Source of the DNA: Hexactinellida sp. DTS-2022
Taxonomy: Eukaryota; Porifera; Hexactinellida
DNA: 64,000 nucleotides
Assembly (NCBI GenBank): GCA_028753945.1
Contig: JAPNXP010000010.1
Span: forward strand, 1,863,042-1,927,041
Direction: 5' to 3'
The translations under genes and the position numbers were made by a program. The number at the start of each line of letters is the position of its first letter. Positions within the stretch are counted from its first letter, which is position 1. Positions 5,524 to 59,756 of this stretch are shown piece after piece. The notes under the pieces were generated by a model, which was given only the letters and a program-made list of their open reading frames with translations, searched no databases and was not told where the DNA came from.

Positions 5524-5972
5524 CAGTAGAACCTCCCAGATCCGGACCTCTCAGAACCGGGCACCTCCTTAAACCGGGCAACATTTTTGTATATGTTCAA
5601 AATTTATTCGCCATTTTTCTGGGAATTAGCCCCAAAAATATAGTTTATCTTTGCAGATTTGTATGTCAAACATGTTACTAAAAGTAGAACCACCCTTATC
5701 TGGGCGGTAAATAGTGGTTTGGATTTGGCCATATGGTAATCTCGCTAATTTATATACGATTCATATTCGAAATTTATGAACTCTTTTGGTAAACCTATAT
5801 CAAGATCAGATGTCGGAGGTGCGTATCAGGTCAGCCAACAGCTATTGAGACACCAGAACATAAACACTAGTTGATTATACAATAGAAATTATGATTATTT
5901 CCGAGAACCGGGCAAATTCTAAGATCCGGGCACCCCCCGGACGAGGCTGCCCGGATTGGGGAGGTTCTACTA
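5524..5972. mobile_element. pogo-type MITE, ~449 bp
   Basis: The left end is CAGTAGAACCTCCCAGATCC. The right end is its complement with the last base changed. TA lies on both sides, in a TATATA run on the right. Internal arms contain CCGGGCA motifs. There is no transposase; it would be mobilised in trans by a pogo/Tigger-like enzyme. Confidence 0.78.
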
Positions 5973-28929: not shown

Positions 28930-30425
28930 ACTCTCTTCGGATCAGAAAACATTACAACCATTGGTCCCTCATCCTCTTTGTGCAAGCAAATCACTTATTC
29001 TTATGTTTGATTTTTTGCATATAGTAAAGACAATTCGTAACAATTGACTAAATTTAAAAAATGATAATCAGACTTTTATCTACCCAAAGCTCGAAGATTT
29101 TTTGCCAACTTACACTCGATATCCTCTAAACCTACAGACTGCCTCCTTCACTGATATTCGTCAGATTTATAGGATAGAGCAGAACAGCATTGCAAAACTT
29201 GCACCGCGTCTCACAGCCAAAGCATGTTGGCCTTCGAAGTTAGAGCGCCAAAATGTTAAATTAGCTCTCCGCATTTTCGACTACTCTACCAGCGCAGCCC
29301 TCAAGATTTGCAACGAACCTCGCCTCGAACGTTTCAAAAACCATATCGCTGAATTCATCGATATCATCGTTATGGTCTGGAAATTGTTTAATGTTAATCG
29401 GCCGAACAAAGACAAACGTTTGAATGACGAATATTCCAAACAACTAGTCTTTAATGATTCTAGATTTGTGCTCATTAATTGCATTGTTAACTGGCTCACT
29501 GCCTGGAGATCATTACCCGGAAAACATGGCAAATTGAGTCCACAGACTTTCACTTCCTTCAAACATACTTGTGAAGCGCTACCGATTCTAGTCAACCATT
29601 TAACTTCTCAATGTGGATTTTCCTACTTACTTACTTACTTATTTCTTACAAGCAGATCCGCTGGAACACCACTTCGGATTGTAAGGAATGATGTCTGGCT
29701 CAAATTATCATGTTTCCTTTAGTCAGATTCTCGAAACGGTACGCCGACTCAAAGTCTCTAGCATCCTGAAGCTATTTTCACAACAGCCTTGTAAAGAATA
29801 TAATTTAAAATCTTTCTTCAAATCGTTCACCTCAGACGAAGCCGCCAATGATTCTCATACCGACCTAAATCCATTTCTTTCAAAGTTACAAGATATGTTT
29901 ACTGTCATTCTTGACAATGAGACCATCCAATCTTTGGCTTTTATTGCAGGTACTGTGTCCATCAATTTTTCAAGAGTCAGAAGTTTCAGAATTGCCGATT
30001 CTGTTTAGATTTCCTAACCTCTGACAGAGATCTGTTATTCGATCCAGAGGAATCTATAAAATACTAGCTTATTGAAATCTTGGACCGGGGTTCTTTGAAG
30101 TGGCCATCAGACTCTGTCTTAGATTCTATCATCACTGTTTGGCGGATTCTAATACCATTGAAACAGGATGTCGATATCTGGACACAGTTTGTCAGTGGAA
30201 AACCTCGCAATTCTAATAGAATTGTCAATTAGAACCGTTGAAGATACCTCGAGCGAAACATGGCGTAACAGATGCTTGATTTGCAATTCTGATGGTTGGG
30301 AAGTGTTACGGAAATTAGTTTCAGTGGCTTCAAACTGCCTTATCTCTAACTTTGTTAAGAATTTTAACTCACAAGTAGCTTCACGAGAAGATAGCCGTAA
30401 ATTAAAGAAGTTTAAAGTTCATTAA
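28930..30425 (+). pseudogene. P-element/THAP9-like transposase, copy C (C-terminal ~60%)
   Basis: This carries the C-terminal part of a P-superfamily transposase. In frame from about 28999, FDFLHIVKTIRNN is followed by a stop (TGA at the Trp position of copy A), then TFIYPKLEDF. The ORF 29102-29722 continues with KLERQNVKLALRIFDYST, IIVMVWKLFNVNRPNKDKRL and LPGKHGKLSPQTFTSFKHTC, each matching copies A and D. After a frameshift near 29600-29690 the reading continues with FAFIAGTV-like and LDRGSLKWPSDSVLDSI segments. It ends NFVKNFNSQVASREDSRKLKKFK at 30425. No THAP domain or first catalytic Asp is seen upstream. It is the best preserved C-terminus of the four, but dead. Confidence 0.8.
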
Positions 30426-33280: not shown

Positions 33281-33286
33281 GTGGTG

Positions 33287-36223
33287 CACAGTGGGCCAGA
33301 ATGCTAATTTGCAGGAAGTAGTATAAATATTAACTTTAGCGATATATTATGTATTATTGTACTATAGGTTATTGACCCTTAGGAACCCATTTCTTCAAAT
33401 AGATTTATTGTGTGGCCACTTTTTATCAACTTATGGTTTTATAATAAATTTTCATATAATGAATGTGTTGTGGTTGTTTAATAGTTAATCAACAATGTTA
33501 TGTAATAGTGATTCGACTAATAAATTCTGTTCTGCTGTGTTGTCCTGATGTTTTCTACATGAAAATCGACAGAAATGATTGATTGCGCCACAAAATTTAC
33601 ATTTGGGAACTCTGCAAAATTTTAATAAAACAGGATCACTTTCACTCAAAAGACGTACAAAGACATCTCTAATGTTTGAATTAAAAGAACACTTTCTTGA
33701 AAGATACTCTCGATAGTTTCTAATCAACTTATTACAAGCCTCTAAAGCTTCTTCAGAATATTGTTTCATACCATATCCATCATTACAGCTTTGGATGAGT
33801 TCCACACTATGTGCTAAGAGTTTATGGAGAGAGGGAGTGACATTTACCCACGGAAATTCGACGACAATAAACTCGTATGTATATTTGCAAATGTTGTCCA
33901 GTTTATCTGTGTCAATTGCCTGACCACAATTAAAGACTCGCAGAATAGCTGAAAGATTGAGATGTATTAGTTTGATTGGTTCTCTTGATTCTAATGATAT
34001 TAAAGTTGATACCCATTCAATGAAATTGTTCTTACCAATAAAACATGATCGAGCAACATTACCAGTTGATGTTGTTCCTCCAGCACTCGATACCTGATCT
34101 ATCTTTATCCCAGTTTTTTCTAGTAAGAATTCACGTACAAATTTCATTGAATCCTGGATACGTTTCGATGTGGGGGCCCATTTATAAGTTCCAGATTGTA
34201 AATGGTAGATTAGCAACATAAACCATCGAAATATGCACGTGTACGAGTGTAGAGGGGATGCTGATGTTATATCGATATTAGAAATTGGTTCATGGGTTAA
34301 CCCAAATCTTTCTTTGGAGGGTAAAGAGAGGAAATCTTCTCTGTCAACTGAATCGAATATAAGCTTAGCATCTGATATGGACCTGTTTATTGGGTAGCCA
34401 GCAAGGATAAAATCCAAATCTTTTAATTGATCAAAGTGTGTAGTACACAGCTGACAACTGGCCCCACCTGCACCTGATAATATCGCGGACATTTTGCCAT
34501 CGAACATTGTTCGTTTTATTTCGACGAAGATTTTACCATTAGGGAGAATTATTCCTTCTTTTTCAATTAGTGTAACTTCAGGATTGATAATTGTATCTAA
34601 AATGAACTTAACATTCTCTTCATTTTCAATGCAATAGGCCTCACTCCAAATGGAGAATTTGGAGTTTCGTTCTCCCATAGTAACGTGCCAGAAACATCTT
34701 TTAATGACAATAATTTAAAGGGCAAATAGGATGTAATTTTTGGTATTGAAAGTTGGACTACCATGTTGTTGGTTATATATTTTATGAGAGCCTGATCCAT
34801 CTAGTCCATCAGATACTTTGATTGTGAGTGGATAAACAAACTTATCACTTTCATTATGGACTCCAACAAACGTACAAATGTGTGGTGTAATAACACTCTG
34901 TATGAGATGGCAATCCCAATACTATGTTCATCAACAGGAGTTGATATGAATTTTAGATCATTAGTGAGCACAATTTGTGATCGATATTCAAAAATGTCAT
35001 TATATGTAGGGAAAACAAAGTTCTCAGTTTTACAAAGCCGACGAAGCTCATTGTATTTCCGTTTACCAATTTGAAGGTGGTCAATAAGAAAAACAGACTT
35101 GGGTAAAGGCATATGTGACAAAGGTTTGGAGAAGGTACCGGAACGAATGATTTCTTTACAGACTATTGGAACTTTCTTATCACAAAGCTCGTTTGATATC
35201 AGTTGCAATAGGTAACTAGCTATAGTTTTCTTGTCAGTTTCTTCTTTGGTGGCTATAATATCAATCAGGTTTAGAAGTGAAGAAAGACGAGTTCTTAAAG
35301 CTTTCAGTGTAAGTTCTGAAAGAGATTTTTTGTTTTCGTGTGACAAATGGATTTCTAAGATGGTATTATCTTGAAGTAAAATTTTCTTCTGAGGACCATT
35401 AGTTGACAAAGGGTAAAAAAGCATCTGCTCCCAAGTCGACAAATCACCTTTCTTTCGAAAATAGTCGCGCTCAGATGTCAGACCTCTAAATTTTCCTCGA
35501 ATTCTCTCAAACTGGCTAATATCGACATCGTATGCTTCAATAAATGTCTGTGTTGCTGAACGGAGTGTTTCTGTATCCAGAAGGGTAAGCGCGTCTTTGT
35601 TGTTCATTTACGACAAATTATATTGTTCTAGTATTGAAAATAAGAAAAATAATATTATTTGGCAAAAAAAACGCCGTTAAAATTGTCAAAGTCCCTCTGA
35701 TATAATATAAAAATTTGGTCAACTGTGCGCCTTCGTGCGGGGTTGAAATTTGATGGAAAACAATGACAATATCAATATAATCATTTTCAATCAATGAAAG
35801 CTTTTACCCAAGCTCACCCAAAAGTACTTTTTGATGGTTCAATACTGAATTTCTAGTGGAAAATGTCATGGAAATATGGAAAATTGGACATAACCCTACT
35901 ATTTTAAAATTTAAGAAATTCGAGTTCATTTCAACTCTAATATTAACATATGCCTATATACAATGTTTTGATTTAGTTTCTAAGGTGATAAAGCTTTTAT
36001 AGTAGCACAATAAATATTTTCACTGTCGAAACCACAAATAAGCTTTTTGTTTTCTTTTATATGCATTCCCACGATGAAACAGTGTATCAGCATAACTAAT
36101 ACATATTTCTCACCAAAATTCACATACCTATGTTTTAGACAATGGAGATAAATAATATTCGCTTTTTAGCAGTATCAGAGGAAGTCAAATTTTGAACCCA
36201 CTTCCTGCTCCTGGCCCACTGTG
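33287..36223 (-). mobile_element. Transib/RAG1-like DNA transposon, 2937 bp, both ends present
   Basis: The left end CACAGTGGGCCAG (33287-33299) and the right end CTGGCCCACTGTG (36211-36223) are perfect 13-bp inverted repeats. A second shared block, CAGGAAGT, lies 18 nt inside the left heptamer (33312-33319) and 9 nt inside the right one (36200-36207). CACAGTG is the consensus V(D)J recombination-signal heptamer; Transib ends are known to begin CACWATG or similar. Between the ends lies a minus-strand RAG1-family transposase. TGGTG occurs at 33282-33286 and again at 36239-36243. The second copy is separated from the end by GCATGCATGCATGCA, so a 5-bp target duplication (the Transib length) is possible but not clean. 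Confidence 0.8.
33485..35607 (-). pseudogene. Transib/RAG1-family transposase (frameshifted, DDE residues visible)
   Basis: It reads in three pieces on the minus strand. The N-terminal 268 residues (35607-34801) include IGKRKYNELRRLC and VFPTYNDIFEYR, as in Transib/RAG1 proteins. Next, in another frame, VSDGLDGSGSHK supplies the first catalytic Asp (codon 34808-34810), matching RAG1 D600. Further frame changes lead to the C-terminal 397 residues (34678-33485), which carry MFDGK (Asp60, cf. D708), CQLC (Cys75/78), LHKLLAH (His285/290) and SEEALEACNKLIRNYRE (Glu313, cf. E962). These match RAG1's metal and zinc ligands. The tail has a Cys/His cluster, CKFCGAINHFCRFSC (360-374). At least two or three frameshifts lie in 34640-34860, so the copy is broken there unless the assembly is wrong. 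In the family the enzyme cuts at its own inverted ends. Confidence 0.85.
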
Positions 36224-37004
36224 GCATGCATGCATGCATGGTGTTCTAGAGAGTCATTTTGGATCCTCGCAGTGAGAAGGTACTTATACCCACAGTTCTC
36301 GATAAGTTGTTAGACCAGCAGTGGTAACGCCTCACATGTGTGTCGAAAACTGGTAAAGGTTTGCGGAGTTAACTTTCCCGATATATATGTCAGATTTACC
36401 CAATATCTAACCAAGAGACAAAGTTGCTTATATATTGTAAACGGAGATCTGCTGGATAAATTGGAGCTAAATAATCATCCTTAAACGAATATTCTTTCCG
36501 ACTCAATTTACGTTAAATATTTTCCACGCTGCATATTATATCAAGAAATTCTACAGTTTGAGTGGTATCCACTATGTTATTTTTCCAATTTCCAGACTAA
36601 TAAACAAGCAAATGTTGTCTCATGGAATATTTTCAGTGCTAAACTGGCGTTTTGTCTTTCTAACCTAGAGGGCCTACACGCTTTAGCTGTTAATTTGGGT
36701 GCTCGTTTAGGACATTATACTTATCGGATTTGAACAAGTTACGGATGTCTTGAAAGGGTGAATATCATAGTACAGGATAGGTAGAGTTCGAGGTAAAATG
36801 ATCTATTGATATATTCGCAGTCGTTATTGGAGACGACTTTTCCTACACTGAATTGACATTCATCAAATTTCGGATAAATGAATGTGTTTTCATAATCCTC
36901 AAGATTTAACCCTCGTCTGGCTAGGAATGTAAAATTGAAACTGAAAGTTAATTGAATTTCAATTGAAAGTGAAAGTGGGGTTTTTCTATTTATACCTTTT
37001 ACCC

Positions 37005-43946: not shown

Positions 43947-44815
43947 TTACTCATCAGTATCAGATAATTCAATCCCTGCTTCTAAAGTGAAGGTACTACC
44001 AATAGTGTTGCTCATTGCATTTAAATACTGCCAAGGAGTGAACTCGCCAGATCTGAACTTTTCCTTAATAACCTCGCGTTGTTGATCCTTTAGAACATGC
44101 TTTGATTTCCTCGCCCTAGAAATGCTATGACCTAGTCTCAATCTCCCTAATTCATTATCTATGTCTTCTATTATATTGTTTAGAGTTGTTAGAAAATTCC
44201 ATACTCTTGGATGAGGAGTTTTAATGATGGATTTGAGCTTTGCGTGATAGCTTTCCGCAGCATTATTAGTGGTAATTTCAGCTTCATAGATAGAAAGTTC
44301 CTCTGGATCAATTGAGTAATCCACCTCTTCTTGAAGTATTTACGAAGTTGCTCCAATTTGCTTGATTCTAGATTTGTAAGATCCGGTACTTGGAGGAACG
44401 CATAGGTTGGACGAATTAAGCTTGCTGGGAGAAATGGTATTGCCATGAGATTTCTTATGAACTTGGCAATTTCAGGATTACCATGAAAATTCTGAACAAG
44501 CCCGAGCTTCTGAGTTTTGGCCCAGATACGTTGGGTAAAGTGGAACCAACATCCCTGATTTTTAATGGCGGGATAAATTTCTTTCATAGAATTTCGCGGT
44601 GCTGGTTCCCAGTCAGAAATAGAGATTTTCGGTATGAAATCTGGAATGAGAGAATGGATCTTAGTTATTATTGCAGTATAAAGTTCTTGATCTTTAGAGG
44701 TCATTAAACATTGTATGCCTGGGAGTGCATGTCGATCAATTACCACGAATACTGTCCATAACTGGCAGAATTGGGTTGGCACTGTCAGGGACTTCTCTAA
44801 TATAGGGACTGTAAA
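43947..44815 (-). pseudogene. MULE transposase (N-terminus lost, one frameshift)
   Basis: On the minus strand from about 44815: KFTVPILEKSLTVPTQFCQLW, then SISDWEPAPRNSMKEIYPAIK and GCWFHFTQRIWAKTQKLGL. This is the core of the MULE transposase domain; Asp in SISDWEPA is the second catalytic residue. After a frameshift near 44325 the chain goes on with TTNNAAESYHAKLKSII, which carries the catalytic Glu, and HPRVWNFL. It ends at 43947 (LSDTDE). The segment with the first catalytic Asp would lie upstream, where the 44851-46034 element interrupts. The gene is therefore dead. It is the enzyme that would act on the arrays flanking it. Confidence 0.85.
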
Positions 44816-44850
44816 CTTCGTTTTACGGTAAAATTAGCGTAGGCCTAAAA

Positions 44851-47630: not shown

Positions 47631-47779
47631 GGGGCAACAATTGAAAATGGGGAGGAAGGACAATAGTGACAACAGTGACAAGTTTAACCCTTGTTCAGTC
47701 CTAAATTTTATACCGTCCAGTTGTTCAATTTGATGTGTTTTCAGCTTAGATTTCATCTGTATTACTCTTCCTCATCCTA

Positions 47780-48750
47780 AACTCTACAACGGCTCTATTC
47801 TCTTAGGTTTAGAGAATCATTATTCAACATTTCTCAAAAAAGCAACTTCAGAATTTAATCCAAGGGAGCGAAATTTAATTGTACACATGGATGAGATGCA
47901 TGTCAAATCTACTGTGGCTTATACAGGAGGAAGAATAATCGGTTATTCGTTGCAACCTGATCAACCTATTAAAACTGTTTTCGCCATAATGGCATCAAGT
48001 CTCTACAGAAAATTGTCTCAGGTGGTCCGTCTATTACCCTGCTCTTCGAATACAGCTGAAGATATCTTTACAGTAGTCAAGTCTGTTATTTCTGATATTG
48101 AACGTTTTGCTCTGATAGTGCAAGCTATATGTACAGATAATAATCCGCTAAATGTTAGCCTTTTTCAATTTTTATATTCAGATAATAAAACTCTAACTCC
48201 TACGTTACTCATCCGAATGATCCGAGACGGAACCTGTATCTCCTCTTCGATTTCGTACACATCATCAAAAGAATTCGAAATAATTTGCTTAATTTAAAAT
48301 ACTATAATCGTACTTTTATCTATTCGAATCCATTAATTTTCCAAACTTTGATGATATAGCTAAGTTACGTTTCGCTCATTCCAGGACATACTACTATTAT
48401 ACAAAAAGGAACAGTATTCTTTAATTAAACTAGTTCATCGCTTAACTTCCAAAGCTTGCTGGCCTATTATGTTGGAGAGACAGAATGTAAACCTTGCCTT
48501 GAAGATAATTGATACATCAACATATTCTACGCTAACAATTTACCAAGCTACCTGTACCAACTTGAATTCTCAGACATCCGAATTTCTAGACATTATTATC
48601 ATGGTATGGAAAATATTCAACGTAAATACAACACATAAACACATTAGTCTTAATGATTCTAACTCGAAGAATCACAAAGAATCAAGATCTCAGCTGGCTT
48701 GTAATTACTTATTGCATATTTTATTTTATGTGGTAAGTCGTCAGTTGTAA
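47780..48750 (+). pseudogene. P-element/THAP9-like transposase, copy D (central part)
   Basis: ORF 47887-48297 opens the catalytic domain: MDEMHVKSTVAYTGGRIIGY (first Asp codon 47890-47892), then PIKTVFAIMASSLYRKLSQ and ICTDNNPLNVSLF, with a second conserved Asp. After a frameshift, FDFVHIIKRIRNN follows at about 48249-48287. After further breaks, 48469-48750 gives MLERQNVNLALKIIDTSTYS and IIIMVWKIFNVN. The THAP domain and C-terminus are missing. It is closer to copy C than to A/B in the LERQNV..ALKI block. Decayed. Confidence 0.8.
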
Positions 48751-58560: not shown

Positions 58561-59269
58561 GTTTTATTTTTAGATAGTTTCAAAAATAAATGCTTTAAAT
58601 TTATTAGAAATTATACGCAAAAATGTCAGTTGTATCAATAATTCTAAGCAATTGTTTGTAGTGGTATATGAGTGCACTCTAGTGAGCACGCTCCGAAAAA
58701 ATTGGAGGACCCCGCACCTCACATCGCCGCGATTTCGTTATTTAGTTTTATAGAAACAGTATTGTTACTCAATTTATTGAAAGGAAATTAATTTGTTATA
58801 TTCTAACAAAATTCATATAATTTTAATTTTTTATACAAGAATTATTCAATTACACTGATAATATTTAGCAGGCTGTTTAACTCGTCATTAATATCTGTAA
58901 CCGCTAAACGATATTTTCAACTGTTAAATGGTAATCCGGCCTGCTCCATCTTAACAACCTCGAATGCGAGAGTTAAGATGAAAATTTCACACCTTATCCG
59001 AATCCTCGGAGTTAAAAATTTCACACGCGTGCCATACCTAATCTATATCCTTAGTTAGAAAATCTTTTAGTATTTGTGGTTTAAGGAATCATTTAGTGTT
59101 TATTAGGACGACATACGATTTGGGTGAACGAATATTGTTATGATTGTACACTGTATCCATTTAATCCCTTATTTACTGATCCGATATATTTTTGATTTAA
59201 AGATGCATTAATTTTAATCAATGAATTGTCCCATATTCGCACGTTTCTGATATCTCATATATCTTTTAG
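58561..59269. other. Distal end of the sds22 intron
   Basis: There is no element beyond GC-richer scraps (about 58690-58730) and a possible MITE end, CAGGCTGTTTAACTCG, at about 58870. The last bases, ATATATCTTTTAG (to 59269), form a pyrimidine-rich acceptor. Confidence 0.45.
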
Positions 59270-59756
59270 AATACGAAAAATAGAGAATATTGATTGTCTT
59301 GTCAACCTTAAGAAGCTCTATTTAGGCAAAAATAAAATCGAGAAGATGGAAGGACTTGAAAATTTAATCTGTCTCCACACTCTCAGTTTACAAAATAATC
59401 GCATTAGCAAGATTGAAGGATTGTTCACCCTATGCAATTTATCTGAACTTTATTTGTCATTCAATTTGATTACAGATATATCTCATCTTGATCATCTTCA
59501 CTCTCTAAATATTTTAGATTTAGGTCATAATACAATTAGCCTAGTTGAGAATATATCTCATTTATGCAATCTTGAAGATTTCTGGTTGAATAATAATAAA
59601 ATCTCTAGTTGGAACTGTATTAAGGAACTTGAAAGTTGTGAAAAACTTCGTTGTATATATCTAGAACACAACCCTATTAGTCAAGATCCAATGTACCGCA
59701 AAAAGTTAAAACTAGCTATTAGATCTTTGAACCAGATAGATGCTACTCAATGCTGA
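59270..59756 (+). CDS. sds22 (PPP1R7): sds22 / PP1 regulatory subunit 7, 3' coding exon
   Basis: The exon completes codon 161 (AG|A, Arg) and encodes residues 162-322, then TGA at 59754-59756. It continues the repeats with IRKIENIDCLVNLKKLYLGK, NRISKIEGLFTLCNLSELYL, LDLGHNTISLVENISHL and FWLNNNKISSW. It ends in the sds22-type C-terminal cap: IYLEHNPISQDPMYRKKLKL ... SLNQIDATQC. Family members end with the same QIDAT motif. There are about six further 22-residue LRRs, making roughly eleven to twelve in the whole protein. The total of 322 residues is a little shorter than the ~360 of vertebrate PPP1R7, mainly at the N-terminus. An ATG at 59226 lies in the intron and is not the start. A variant poly(A) signal follows at 59775. 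Confidence 0.93.

Follow-up and report, generated by a model that had tools for sequence, protein, structure and literature searches.

The stretch of DNA considered in this work (hereafter, the window) comprises 64,000 nucleotides of the glass sponge Hexactinellida sp. DTS-2022 (assembly GCA_028753945.1, contig JAPNXP010000010.1, positions 1,863,042 to 1,927,041). At positions 33287-36223 it harbors an element which, with a probability that we place at about 0.8, represents a dead copy of an autonomous cut-and-paste transposon of the Transib superfamily, most similar to the "Subgroup I" Transibs of Tao et al. 2022; this likeness was judged by the features described in the text of that paper (PMC9435367). 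The traits of Transib membership found in the element are terminal inverted repeats (TIRs) starting with CAC, a 5-bp target-site duplication (TSD), which at the right end of the window copy comes after a 15-bp repeat, a RAG1-like DDE core with ZnC2/ZnH2, and, judging from the sizes of the element and of its open reading frames (ORFs), a single gene with no RAG2L. An initial annotation of the window had correctly proposed the Transib/RAG1-like identity and the ends; it overlooked the asymmetry of the ends, the CCHC tail, the ZnB region and the right-hand repeat, and the exact terminal heptamer to which it gave weight is not unprecedented.

Throughout, the left end is the one lying 3' of the transposase gene and the right end the one lying 5' of it. 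As the initial annotation had claimed, the element is bounded by perfect 13-bp inverted repeats, CACAGTGGGCCAG at 33287-33299 (plus strand, heptamer 33287-33293) and CTGGCCCACTGTG at 36211-36223 (the right TIR, on the minus strand, heptamer 36217-36223), and the conserved 'CAGGAAGT' block, likewise noticed there, is present at both ends. This second element, resembling GGGAARTAGG, starts near +27 of the left end and +18 of the right end; in the window copy it reads AGGAAGTAGT at 33313-33322 (plus strand, +27, spacer 19) and AGGAAGTGGG at 36197-36206 (minus strand, +18, spacer 10). The TSD TGGTG adjoins the left end (33282-33286, plus strand), and its right counterpart (36239-36243, plus strand) follows a self-complementary repeat tail, GCATGCATGCATGCA (36224-36238, plus strand). 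The right TSD thus sits past a 15-bp repeat, so that the insertion runs to 36238 and 33287-36223 alone does not describe the mobile unit; the kind of element first proposed for this interval stands, its extent, which left out the tail and the TSDs, does not.

The search of the whole genome (112.4 Mb in 18 contigs) retrieved at least 54 DNA matches to the element and at least 106 matches to the C-terminal piece of its transposase, some of them within open frames of 710-757 aa. The exact 13-mer of the ends occurs 20 times, versus 0 for the same sequence read backwards; the genome search suggested at the outset confirms the CACAGTG ends in other copies. In the clade of closely related copies to which the window element belongs (the window clade), the heptamer is exactly CACAGTG in 14/14 right ends and in 7/13 left ends that could be read, the other six left ends being variant or decayed (CACATTG in two, and CATAGTG, TACAGTG, CACAGTC and AAAAGTG). 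Both counts lean upward, since several ends (those of L042, L043, L044 and L045, and on the right side those of L013, L014 and L019) were located by the exact 13-mer; the right-end count is biased in addition by the remaining right ends, which were located by matches reaching the end. Many matches to the window family lie on a single contig, C11 (15.6 Mb). Three copies, L009, L017 and L021, have identical flanks and were counted once in the repeat-run statistics given below; their identical right flanks on C11 suggest a segmental duplication. A 72%-identical, 96-bp Transib fragment at the edge (positions 1-96) of a 3.3-kb contig of a 'Candidatus Paceibacter' metagenome-assembled genome (L053), with no ORF longer than 119 aa, is likely a contamination and was not used.

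The genome holds many Transib families. In 22 loci (L025, L026, L029-L041 and L046-L052) we looked around the other transposase genes for inverted repeats anchored on CAC, obtaining eight two-ended copies (L032, L035, L037, L038, L039, L047, L048 and L049), which fall into about six families according to our own grouping. All eight start with CACAGTGG at both ends, and an exact 5-bp TSD adjoins both ends in seven of them, that of L038 being one letter off. The list of candidate ends favored pairs with abutting TSDs; judged on end match alone, the chosen pairs still came out best. A ninth two-ended copy, L030 (3002 bp, with AGATT on both sides), was located through its CACAGTGG, which brings the total to nine copies of about seven other families beginning with CACAGTGG at both ends, with a perfect abutting 5-bp TSD in eight of the nine. 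The one-sided ends of L025, L026, L029, L030, L040 and L050-L052 were retrieved with CACNNTGG or CACAGTGG as the query, and for this reason their heptamers do not represent independent evidence. In one of the copies, L048, a 712-aa frame without interruption occurs together with both ends and with the TSD TGCCC in a 3.0-kb element. Moreover, the pairs L046/L047, L035/L037 and L032/L038 share 97.8-99.2% DNA identity over long matches, a near-identity that suggests recent movement.

The position of the second block was checked with a matrix derived from 12 left ends (positions +27 to +36, leave-one-out) and then applied to 14 right ends; the end table omits the left ends of L034 and L036 (like L039), the right end of L046 (like L047), L037 and L038 (like L035 and L032, respectively) and further window-clade copies. 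The matrix site falls at +26 to +28 in 11/12 left ends, the exception being L026 (best site at +23), and at +17/+18 in 11/14 right ends; eight of the 14 right ends score at p<0.01 against shuffles, six of these at +17/+18. The spacer between heptamer and block is therefore close to 19 at the 3' end, against roughly 10 at the 5' end. This geometry, together with a heptamer that is uniform across families, is the valuable part of these data.

As for the relation with the recombination signal sequences (RSSs) of vertebrates, the ends of the window element share with them the heptamer CACAGTG; RSSs carry a nonamer at 12 or 23 bp, whereas the sponge ends do not. The RSS nonamer ACAAAAACC was not found at 12 or 23 bp, with at most 5/9 matches in any of the 12 left and 14 right ends. 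The sponge ends consequently match the heptamer without being RSSs. According to passages of PMC8355894, a few Transibs have some heptamers and nonamers that match the canonical RSSs exactly; the exact heptamer, to which the initial annotation had given weight, recurs in other copies, but in a Transib it is not new in itself, and it stands here without a nonamer. ProtoRAG and the RAGL elements of protostomes have the CAC start in common with the sponge elements, and the CCHC tail of the latter is similar to that of RAGL; ProtoRAG differs in its heptamer (CACTATG), in its 27/31 spacers and in having RAG2L, as reported in parts of PMC8289069.

The right-hand repeat is not peculiar to the window copy. 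Among the seven two-ended copies of the window clade, the TSD abuts the end in two (L014 and L042/L043), the exact 5-mer lies at offset 4, 11, 15 or 25 in four, and in L013 it lies at offset 39 with one mismatch. An exact 5-mer within 40 bp was found in 6/7 of the copies' own pairings versus 1/42 cross-pairings (permutation p 0.0002). The stretches between the right end and the TSD consist mostly of self-complementary repeats (GCAT, AT, CGAT and AGCT), the tail of L018 finishing with seven non-repeat letters. Repeat runs of at least 8 occur at the right junction of 5/13 copies versus 0/14 left junctions (Fisher p 0.016), the background being 0.37% of the positions in the fetched loci; this count includes L025 and drops L017 and L021 as duplicates. 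L025 is a member of a roughly 70%-related family which has lost its left end and carries AGCT six times directly at its right end (5633-5656). No such run was found at the junctions of the eight two-ended copies of the other families, and a literature search on repeat tails listed no title on Transib.

The tail might simply be a target microsatellite, there before the insertion or grown after it, and not a part of transposition. Insertion of transposons next to microsatellites is known (reportedly for MuTAnT and for the miniature inverted-repeat transposable elements of pineapple), repeats of this kind alter by slippage, and the tail is absent from two of the seven window-clade copies. The 5-bp duplication found past the repeat (exact in four copies, with one mismatch in L013), the restriction of the runs to right junctions against so low a background, and the self-complementary nature of the units speak against this explanation, although the non-repeat letters closing the L018 tail weaken the last point; we consider it possible, even if the less likely one. 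If the tail does arise during transposition, it may derive from a displaced cleavage carrying the repeat along or from synthesis in which a free 3' end serves as its own template while the element inserts.

The transposase of the window copy is broken into three minus-strand pieces in different frames: a C-terminal one of 409 aa (33485-34714), a middle one of 68 aa in another frame (34715-34921) and an N-terminal one of 268 aa (34801-35607). As claimed in the initial annotation, the protein between the ends is of the RAG1 family: for the C-terminal piece the best solved-structure match is the HzTransib transposase (E 4.8e-19), and it also matches amphioxus RAG1L (E 9.9e-06). Alignment of the pieces with RAG1 shows that the catalytic and zinc residues, equivalent to D600, D708, E962, C727, C730, H937 and H942, are all kept. 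The D600 equivalent lies in the middle piece (SDGLDGSGSH), while those of D708 and E962 and the ZnC2/ZnH2 residues lie in the C-terminal one, which also includes a CCHC knuckle, CKFCGAINHFCRFSC (33557-33601, minus strand), similar to CTT*/CTT1, in which N replaces G and one residue is added with respect to Cx2Cx3GHx4C. By resemblance, the N-terminal piece would include the helical region that appears NBD-like in the predicted model of the intact relative L048. The Pfam RAG1 profile matches long-frame relatives from the same genome (L048 with 28.8 bits and L049 with 36.7 bits, cut-off 25), and 15 of its 33 matches in this genome are over the cut-off.

In an unrooted tree comparing sponge, HzTransib-like, RAG1L and RAG1 proteins, the sponge proteins form a single group apart from 15 HzTransib-like proteins (support 100/99 and 100/100) and are split from RAG1L plus RAG1, so that tree and fold set the protein in the RAG1/Transib kind, as the initial annotation would have it, and the tree does not put it inside the RAG1L/RAG1 clade. 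Short branches join L051 and two proteins of Oopsacas, and the named relatives among the 64 sponge protein matches are all from Oopsacas minuta (13/13); both would suggest a glass sponge as the host, although transposons are able to pass between species. The ZnB region has the length found in RAG proteins (a median of 63 aa in the sponge proteins versus 26 and 61, 26 being the value for HzTransib-like ones), its α11-α12 likeness being judged by length and profile alignment. A CCHC tail whose last spacer measures 4 or 5 is present in 15/29 readable sponge tails and in 0/87 HzTransib-like proteins.

These data resemble the description of Subgroup I in PMC9435367 in the asymmetric TIRs (with the block starting near +27 and +18), in the RAG-length ZnB with its α11-α12 region, in a CCHC-type tail and in an NBD-like domain, and differ from it in the sponge tail, usually one residue longer, and in the right-end repeat, which is not mentioned there. 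Of the three features stated in that text, the window element shows two, and the remaining one more loosely. Subgroup I Transibs have been proposed as intermediates between Transib and RAG1L, and the organisms given for them are ctenophores, bacteria, fungi, plants and other metazoans, sponges not being mentioned (PMC9435367). No title on sponge Transibs emerged from a literature search on Transib and sponges covering titles and abstract openings, and the main texts of the genome papers on Oopsacas (PMC10280926) and Aphrocallistes (PMC10282587) contain no word starting with 'Transib' or 'RAG'.

Several observations weigh against the assignment to Subgroup I or against its features. The Pfam scan of the window pieces gave no match above the cut-off, and the profile comparison sets the protein nearer to HzTransib than to RAG1L. 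As to the tail, 14/29 readable sponge proteins lack it, the strict published pattern Cx2Cx3GHx4C occurs in only 2/64 sponge proteins, the last spacer is 5 in 13/15 sponge tails versus 4 in all 13 RAG1L/RAG1 tails, L049-L051 from the same genome fail the pattern (L049 comes close to it), and the match of L048 to Pfam zf-CCHC stays under the cut-off. As to the block, the site of the right end of L035 is at +13 (spacer 5), L039 and L040 have their best matrix site at +8, even if GGGGAAATAG or GGAGAAATAG can be seen by eye at +17, and the sites are weak in L025, L026, L050 and L052.

One might think of an ordinary Transib of the insect kind (HzTransib, Subgroup II) whose heptamer matches the RSS by chance. 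With HzTransib the sponge proteins share the DDE core with ZnC2/H2, it is both the strongest solved-structure match and the nearest profile, and a single gene with a 5-bp TSD would fit. HzTransib-like proteins, however, are without the CCHC tail, which is frequent in the sponge proteins, and without the ZnB stretch (26 aa versus about 63), they group apart with high support, and the TIRs of HzTransib are called symmetric in the portions of PMC8289069 dealing with them, whereas the sponge ends are asymmetric; this explanation appears improbable.

In AanRAGL of Aureococcus, spacers of 4/13 bp lie between a 13-bp element and a second element of 10 bp (PMC9435367), which places the start of the second element at +18 and +27, the same positions as the sponge block; AanRAGL differs in having RAG2L and in the letters of its terminal CACACCCAAACCT and of its second element, CCTCAAYAYG (PMC9435367). 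A relic of a RAG1L-RAG2L transposon after the loss of RAG2L is nevertheless very improbable: the ZnB region, a similar CCHC tail, the block geometry and the Pfam RAG1 matches over the cut-off would agree with it, but the unrooted tree separates the sponge proteins from RAG1L plus RAG1, and L048, with about 270 and 600 bp to spare outside its gene, has too little room for the RAG2L of a RAG1L-RAG2L gene pair. The PF03089 (RAG2) profile was silent in this genome, but the control genomes were silent too.

Starting from the ends, blocks, TSDs, residues and predicted fold of the Subgroup I-like element, the following mechanism can be depicted. A dimer of the RAG1-like DDE transposase would bind and pair the two unequal ends, with the catalytic core, perhaps with the CCHC tail, reading the terminal CACAGTGG, and the NBD-like helical domain reading the GGGAARTAGG-type block at about +18 (5' end) or +27 (3' end), positions about one helical turn apart. 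A nick 5' of CAC would then release the element, presumably leaving hairpinned flanks, and insertion would take place with a 5-bp duplication, accompanied in the window clade by a frequent extra self-complementary repeat at the 5'-end junction. We tentatively suggest, as a rather doubtful proposal taken as a whole, that glass-sponge Transibs keep ancestral RAG/Transib signals (the exact RSS heptamer and a second element at +18/+27, with a pairing of unequal ends predating RAG2, the nonamer and vertebrates) and that in the window clade self-templated synthesis, leaving palindromic tails, is coupled at the 5' end to strand transfer or gap filling. If so, these tails could be compared with the additions, untemplated and palindromic, seen at V(D)J joints. 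The exact RSS heptamer and a regular two-part end are thus common to several families of a probable non-bilaterian animal, among which there are intact genes, near-identical pairs and perfect TSDs; they represent natural, testable substrates for asking if the RSS heptamer is an ancestral trait and if the two-spacer pairing rule preceded RAG2, and make the element a useful new comparison for the origin of the antibody-gene recombination signal.

Other features were detected in the window. A MULE-type transposase is represented by a fragment (PF10551, E 1.5e-06) at 44189-44833 on the minus strand, and pieces with the TNP-like transposase domains PF21787 and PF21788, which we take to be P-element-like, lie at 47734-48297 and 29048-29722, both on the plus strand. 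A piece of a leucine-rich-repeat protein (PF12799 and others), presumably resembling a gene of the sds22/PPP1R7 type, is located at 59196-59756 on the plus strand.
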